64,000 nt of DNA from Amphiura filiformis (Eukaryota > Echinodermata > Ophiuroidea > Amphilepidida > Amphiuridae), in NCBI RefSeq assembly GCF_039555335.1, contig NC_092631.1, forward strand, positions 5,733,501-5,797,500, read 5' to 3'. The position numbers and the translations under genes were made by a program. Below, one piece after another: positions 27,001 to 30,000 of the stretch; the stretch's first letter is position 1; each line of letters starts with the position of its first letter. The notes under the pieces were generated by a model that had not been told where the DNA came from, searched no databases, and was given only the letters and a program-made list of their open reading frames with translations.

Positions 27001-30000
27001 CACAAGGAAGTCGTACCTCATAATTTGTCGCTACATCATAAGCGAAAGTATTAATTGGTATCAATAACCGTGGTGTGTGGGGGTGCGTACGTGTTTGCCG
27101 ACATACGAGGACACACACAAGATTTTTCACCCTAAACTGTGGACCTACTTCCAACCGAGGACTGTCCTCGGTCTCAAACTGCTGCAAAAGACCTCAAATG
27201 CATGCTAGATGCTTTAAACGCTATTTGCCTGAAACCGAGGACCACACGTGTAAAAACTACCGTCCGCAGAGGGTGATGGCTAAAATTCCGTTTCAGTATT
27301 ATACACACAAAAATCCACCATTTTAGTCCACGGTTAGGCGATGAAAACATCATACACACGTACTCGGTTAGATAGCAAAACACAATGTCCACGTTTGGAG
27401 GCAAACACAGACAGGGGTGTGTGTGTGTGCGTATGTCATTTAACAAGCAATTTCATTGGGACTCATATATGTGACTTGTCTTGTCAAAAACAGACACTTT
27501 TGGGCTGGTTATCAATTTTGAGTGTTTTACATTATCTTAAATATAGAGATGTTTTACTCCACATCGCCATTTCCCCCAATGAAATCGGACAATCCTAGGC
27601 GAAGATATTGAGTTTGTAAGTTATGGTATTATAAAATTGGAAATTGAGATATCAGCTTTAAAAACGTTATTGACAATGTTGAGAGTAGGAATGACCTTAA
27701 AAAATGTCTGAAAAAACACAAGATGCCAGTTATATTCCGGTCTGAAATTATCAGACAATATTTTAAATATTATTAGCATCACAAATTTGCAAAAAACCCA
27801 AATTGTGAAAAAAATGACACCCGGGCAGATTTTTGGCTATTTCTCCATTTACGATCCTGCCCAAAAGTGTCTGCTTTCAATATACCACGTCACATATGAT
27901 GTGATACAGGCAGGGCCGTTCCGACCATTAGGCCATGTAAGGCGGTCGCCTAGGGCGGCAAACGTAAGGGGCAAAAAAAAGGGCGAAAAAAGAAAAAACG
28001 GGAATGGAGAAAGAAAAGGGAAGAAAAAGTGAGGGCGGATAAAAAGAAAAAATGGGAAGAAAAATAAAAAGGGGGCGAAAAGAGAAACAGAAAACAGGGC
28101 GGAAAAGGAAAAGGGGATCTGAGAAAAAGGAAAGAAACAGGGCATAAAAGGAAAGAAGACACGGGTATCATACTTTGGTGGGCGGCAGGGAGAGGCTTTG
28201 CCTAGGGCGGCAAAATCACTAGGAACGGCCCTGGATACAGGCAGGTTATGAATATAAGTCGGTCACATCTGTTTGTAGAGTAACAAGTTATTTGATGTTT
28301 TGTGTTCACAGGAAGAGTTCGACATTGGTTCATCCCAAGAGACAGAATAGTTAACAGTTACGTTGTTGAGGTAAGAACACATACTGTATTAAGTGTTACT
28401 ATTTTTGTTGTTGCCTGATAAGGAGAAGACTGTAATCACTTCTCCGGCTGCATGGATACATATGTATGTATGAGGCAAATTTGGTTAAAATTTTGATTAA
28501 ATCCTCTCGGGTGAACAGTTCAAGTCCAGTTACAACCATTATTATGTTTTGATGAATCCTGTGTGAAAATATTGGATCCAACATTAAATTGGAATATAAT
28601 CTAATCAACTGGACTCACATATCTGCCAACATTGAAAACCTAGAAAACAGAGTACATGGGGAACGTAGGGCGCAAAGCGCCCGTAGTATCGCCTCTGACG
28701 GCGGGGTATCCACGGGCAAAGCCCCGGTGGGGGTTGAGGGGGCGAAGCCCCTCAAAGCTAGAGGGTTTCTACACTGTAAAAACCCTTGTAAGCCCCTTCA
28801 CAGAAGACACATTTTATAGAAAAACAACAATAAAGAACAAGGTGAAAATGAAGCCCTAGGCTTTTATACACTTTGAGGAGGGATTTATACTCCATATCTA
28901 GCAACAATTTCAACACATATTTGATGACTACAATGAAAAAAATGTGAAAAAAACATTCTGGGATCTGTTTTTATAAGTTTGAAAAATATGCTTCCTTCAC
29001 ACAGAAAATGTGCTTTTAAAAATGCAGTTTCCTATACTTTTGTACATAACGATCATTCGTTGAAGCCGTTTTTTGGCTTTATAACAAGGCCTACGTGACT
29101 GATAGGACACTGATATAATGCACAATACAAAGTTAAAAATTCAGAAAAAAAAATCAATTTAAAAAAAAACATGTCAACGTTTTTGTTGACTTTGGAGAAC
29201 CACTAGACGTATTCTGAAGTGCTAGGATCATTCCCAGTTAATTTGAAAAATATTACAAAAAAATTACAAAAATATTACAGTTTGTTATCCTTAATATGAA
29301 TATGGATATCGCACCTTATCCTAGGTGCATCTTCAGGCCGTCTGATGATCTGGCGGCAATGGGTCATTGATGTGTGACAAGGTGGTGTTGCCAGAGGTTG
29401 TTGAACTTGAGTCAAACTTCTTATTATGTTCTTGATGACAGAATTGTAGGCCCCCGCCAAGTTGTGGCGTAGACCGCCTCCCCTGTTAAGTGAAGGTTGT
29501 TCTTTCTTTATGTGGATCGCTTCTTTGACACCCCTTTTGAACCACCTGCGTTCTCTGTCCAAAATCACCACATCTTTGTTGTCAAAGGTGTGATTTGTGG
29601 TATCCAAATGGGTGTAAACTGCTGAATCCCCGCAACTAGTACTAGCACGTCTGTGTTGGTATATGCGTTTGGATAAGGTCTATTTGGTTTCACCAATATA
29701 CAAGTCCTGGCAATCGGAGTCCTTGCATTGAATGGCATAGACTATGTTGCTCTGTTTGTCCTTAGGCTGCTTGTCTTTCGGATGAACCAACATTTCCGAT
29801 ACCCTCCTGTGTATTGTCATTTTTACAATGAGAGAAAAGTAATTGTTTAACTCATGGTCTTTGATTTATTATGATGCAAATTGAGAAGCAGTTATTGTGA
29901 TCCTTAAAACAAGAAGTTAATATGAGAACAGTATTGCGAAACTCCTTCAGATCTCTCTAAATTTACTGTACAAGAACTCGGGGAGCTAATCCTGGCTGTG

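Follow-up and report, generated by a model that had tools for sequence, protein, structure and literature searches.

The plus strand of the 64-kb window, by which we mean the whole stretch of DNA analysed here, carries a complete animal N-myristoyltransferase (NMT) gene of 12 coding exons at 14875-34244, running from an ATG at 14875 to a TAG at 34242-34244 (Table 1).

Table 1. Coding exons of the NMT gene and associated features, in window coordinates; a slash marks an exon-intron boundary.
Feature	Position	Strand	Remarks
NMT exon 1 (coding part)	14871..15075	+	ATG at 14875 (start codon inferred), K-rich N-terminal region
NMT exon 2	16711..16852	+	
NMT exon 3	17466..17590	+	
NMT exon 4	19169..19260	+	
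NMT exon 5	20210..20326	+	
NMT exon 6	21738..21908	+	GC donor (CAG/gcaagt)
NMT exon 7	24366..24474	+	
NMT exon 8	25230..25340	+	ends in phase 0 (GAG/gtaatg)
Possible alternative exon 8 donor	25381..25382	+	TGG/GTGTGT; would keep the frame into exon 9 and add 13 residues; scored with a vertebrate-based matrix
NMT exon 9	28312..28370	+	59 bases, one short; EE in frame 0, 17 residues in frame 2
Premature TAG	28348..28350	+	encountered when exon 9 is read in frame 0
NMT exon 10	30356..30520	+	
NMT exon 11	32831..32968	+	
NMT exon 12	34224..34244	+	ISLVLQ and stop; first of three tandem copies

For database searches, the encoded protein was read around a break in exon 9, with an X placed at that position. 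Pfam returned both NMT domains, PF01233 (NMT, 245.4 bits) and PF02799 (NMT_C, 266.2 bits), together with an additional weak GNAT match (20.8 bits against a cut-off of 20.7). The PDB search matched 44 distinct sequences at E <= 0.001, headed by chains named NMT2 (696 bits) and NMT1 (680 bits), with alignments that start at residue 29 or 25 and run to the end of the protein. Identity reached 68.1% (305/448) to the chain named NMT2 and 67.1% (300/447) to the chain named NMT1, compared with 47.1-49.4% to three chains that we take to be fungal; the organism labels of the other comparison chains are likewise our assumption. By these matches, the locus is NMT and animal-like, its nearest PDB sequences being the NMT2 and NMT1 chains. 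The window protein has the same two domains as animal glycylpeptide N-tetradecanoyltransferase (NMT1/NMT2; PF01233 and PF02799), measures 483 residues versus 496 and 498 in the NMT1/NMT2 chains, and ends in ISLVLQ where the animal chains have VGLVLQ, with LVLQ common to both. One scan each of a prokaryote and a virus contig collection, using a single-sequence query that reaches close relatives only, yielded no NMT relatives.

Two details of the gene layout were recorded alongside. Intron 6 opens at 21908-21909 with a GC instead of a GT donor, and the last coding exon sits within a tandem array (34215-34591) of three 127-base copies with 97% matches. Since the stretch ...catttccag/ATCAGTCTGGTTCTCCAGTAG, which encodes ISLVLQ and the stop, is identical in each copy (at 34224, 34351 and 34478), the gene has three possible terminal exons with the same encoded end. 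Intron 9 contains minus-strand fragments (29275-29865) that, judged by eye, are presumably the end of a Penelope-like retroelement and had no Pfam match at 0.001, while intron 3 holds an open reading frame (17799-18626), by eye presumably reverse-transcriptase-like, that is broken by a 31-base N run and had no Pfam match before that run. Further out, the window contains a long (GAAA)n array at 51916-52308 (about 94 units, 78% matches) and, at 12229-12792, five tandem copies of a 119-base unit in which GGTCA motifs abound. Its other open reading frames, searched as five stretches and a peptide of 38 residues, were without a Pfam match at 0.001, and Rfam gave no match at gathering score.

The feature that sets this gene apart from animal NMT1/NMT2 is exon 9, which is one base short in this record. 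The exon is bordered by the acceptor ttcacag/GAAG (gttttgtgttcacag/G) and the donor TGAG/gtaagaac. Phase 0 holds on either side: exon 8, read in the frame set by the ATG, finishes with VFSE, and exon 10 begins with ADGEVTDF. Between them 60 bases are expected and 59 are present, in agreement with the preliminary description. In frame 0, exon 9 yields 12 residues before the premature TAG, whereas frame 2 reads for 19 residues; the record thus holds no single uninterrupted NMT reading frame. Matches to NMT are divided between the two frames, with the first two codons (EE) in one and the last 17 residues in the other, and the break lies where the codons GAG (28315-28317) and GTT (28317-28319) overlap. 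Alignment of VFSEEEXRHWFIP with the relatives' VMDEEEVAHWFLP and VMSQEEVEHWFYP indicates that the exon lacks one base. At the X column, three of the five aligned chains carry V and two carry F, with I in two further chains. The earlier claim of two conserved parts in different frames was borne out, while its reading of the first part as EEF is one of the possibilities at a V/F/I column. The identity of the missing base is not readable from the sequence alone.

Outside exon 9, the gene is in good condition. All 11 remaining exons are open and all 11 introns are bounded by GT...AG or, once, GC...AG, confirming the earlier statement that the other exons are intact. We found no stop in 463 codons, where 204 of the 4167 possible single-base changes create stops and about 68 stops per substitution per site are expected without constraint; by the rule of three, this zero count bounds neutral divergence below about 4.4% at 95%. 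Among 125 columns invariant in five comparison chains (animal and fungal), 117 are kept and eight are changed (P>C, V>A, L>I, V>C, T>S, L>M, D>A and G>S). Some of these changes are non-conservative and may reflect a little relaxation of constraint; comparable differences presumably occur between working orthologues too.

These counts bear on whether the gene is a pseudogene. It is like a unitary or duplicated pseudogene in that a frameshift leads to a premature stop, and unlike one in that there is no second disabling lesion, with 117/125 invariant columns and all intron ends retained. Nor does it look decayed: there is no further stop or frameshift in 11 exons, 0/11 intron ends are broken and 8/125 invariant columns are changed. 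An old pseudogene was ruled out by the lone lesion in about 480 codons; a very young one may be compatible with the sequence. Vertebrates have two NMT genes (compare the PDB chains named NMT1 and NMT2), showing that duplication of NMT is tolerated, and the window gene might accordingly be an unprocessed duplicate at the onset of decay, a second, intact NMT lying elsewhere in the genome. The eight altered columns would fit such a duplicate, to which we nevertheless give only a slender chance, given the lack of any further disabling lesion, the 117 columns kept and the lack of a second NMT copy within the 64-kb window. A tblastn search of the window with the 17-residue half of exon 9 recovered that exon at E 1.35e-08, the other three matches being at chance level (E 1.2 to 7.7), and blastn with the exon plus 60 bases on each side recovered itself and matches of at most 14 bases.

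We consider it likely that a sequencing, consensus or assembly error removed one base from the record of an ordinary, working NMT gene. The base missing from the record would belong near the 5' end of exon 9, at about codons two and three, and the true exon would have 60 bases, encoding 20 residues between the phase-0 junctions after VFSE and before ADGE; the shortfall would presumably be absent from the living genome. Two N runs in the window, at 18476-18506 (31 bases) and 60951-60980 (30 bases), mark it as a gapped draft. NMT is reported to be essential in C. elegans (PMC4154664), which would make a fixed loss of the gene unlikely. RefSeq annotation maintains an established category for gene models that frameshifts in the assembly have disrupted (PMC4028053). 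This 'LOW QUALITY PROTEIN' class of NCBI RefSeq/Gnomon resembles the present case in that a lone frameshift interrupts a conserved gene that is otherwise whole; there the frameshift is one of assembly, whereas here an error is presumed (PMC4028053).

Counting against an error, 8/125 invariant columns differ, some of them non-conservatively. Also against it, the break is not flanked by any homopolymer of more than two bases, and the sequence thus shows no sign of the most frequent type of sequencing slip. It had been proposed that the base was lost from a short C run, a mechanism that the sequence does not support. The runs in 28300-28345 (at least two C or G, at least three A or T) are GG at 28311, GG at 28327 and CCC at 28334; the sole C run, CCC at 28334-28336, lies downstream of the break and is ruled out as the site because the second frame already matches NMT (RHWFI) before it. 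The broader choice offered earlier, between a base dropped in assembly and a recent loss allele, is retained with both as candidates and assembly error favoured, shorn of the unsupported C-run mechanism.

A loss allele would take the form of a real one-base deletion that arose recently, is recessive and is heterozygous in the sequenced individual: translation would proceed for 12 residues to the stop, the transcript would likely be lost to nonsense-mediated decay and the other allele would supply the enzyme. This we regard as unlikely. A very young allele predicts one event and no further disabling lesions, as found here, but any given individual seldom carries a loss allele of an essential gene, and a single consensus cannot reveal two haplotypes. 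The window sequence on its own does not distinguish an error from a real deletion of very recent origin. The weights that we attach to this and the other explanations are a matter of judgement, not of computation. A literature search for N-myristoyltransferase frameshifts in echinoderms found nothing.

The main biological rival to an error in the record invokes splicing. If exon 8 used the donor at 25381 instead of 25341, it would gain 40 bases, the second frame would apply to exon 9 from the very start of the exon, and 13 extra residues would precede VRHWF, leaving no base missing. Splice options were enumerated by pairing GT or GC donors, from position 25240 as far as the in-frame stop that follows exon 8, with three acceptors open to the second frame, and keeping the frame-preserving pairs. 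Nineteen pairs resulted, two of which use donor 25381, one with the normal acceptor and one with an acceptor that scores very poorly (-10.5 bits). The remaining 17 have donors of at most 3.3 bits, the lowest value among the 11 accepted NMT donors being 3.3, and two of these 17 read a stop. At 6.5 bits, TGG/GTGTGT equals the normal GAG/GTAATG, and with the normal acceptor it stays in frame without a stop. As 119 of the 3616 plus-strand GT sites in the window score at least 6.45 bits, the expectation for that 50-base stretch is about 0.1 such sites, whatever their phase. Moreover, the second frame supplies V in the column where three of five chains carry V. However, the site emerged post hoc as the best of the 19 donor-acceptor pairs tried, it lies in a GT-rich stretch, and the scoring matrix is vertebrate-based. 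On protein grounds the reading is weak: the five comparison chains have no insert between the equivalents of LSPVF and RHW, and the normal junction (VFSE/EE) is like the relatives on both sides. We therefore think this splice form quite improbable, and very improbable the more specific version in which a real deletion became fixed in the lineage and was compensated by the 40-base donor shift, giving an enzyme in which an insert of 13 residues, specific to the lineage, precedes the conserved HWF stretch.

Other rescues of the product, by programmed -1 ribosomal frameshifting or skipping of exon 9, are barely credible. Skipping would keep the frame, the exon 8 and exon 10 junctions both being in phase 0, at a cost of about 20 residues, but would remove a stretch (EE..H and VVE) present in all five comparison chains, and a slippery heptamer of the form X XXY YYZ is absent from 28291-28350. 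A scan of 25341-30355 in the three plus-strand frames for HWF-like, VVE or EE.H-like peptides found nothing convincing beyond exon 9. A microexon supplying the missing phase was rejected, its two crude pattern matches (26001 and 27951) being unsupported.

Overall, the frameshifted exon most likely reflects an error in a draft sequence or a rare defective allele rather than new biology. If an error in the record is the cause, the matter is one of annotation only, in which automatic pipelines may label an essential gene a pseudogene or shorten it. If the lesion is real, it would mean that a null allele of an essential gene is segregating, or that splicing compensates a frameshift, which would be rare; the 40-base donor shift, if true, would be a visible frameshift healed by splicing in an essential gene.
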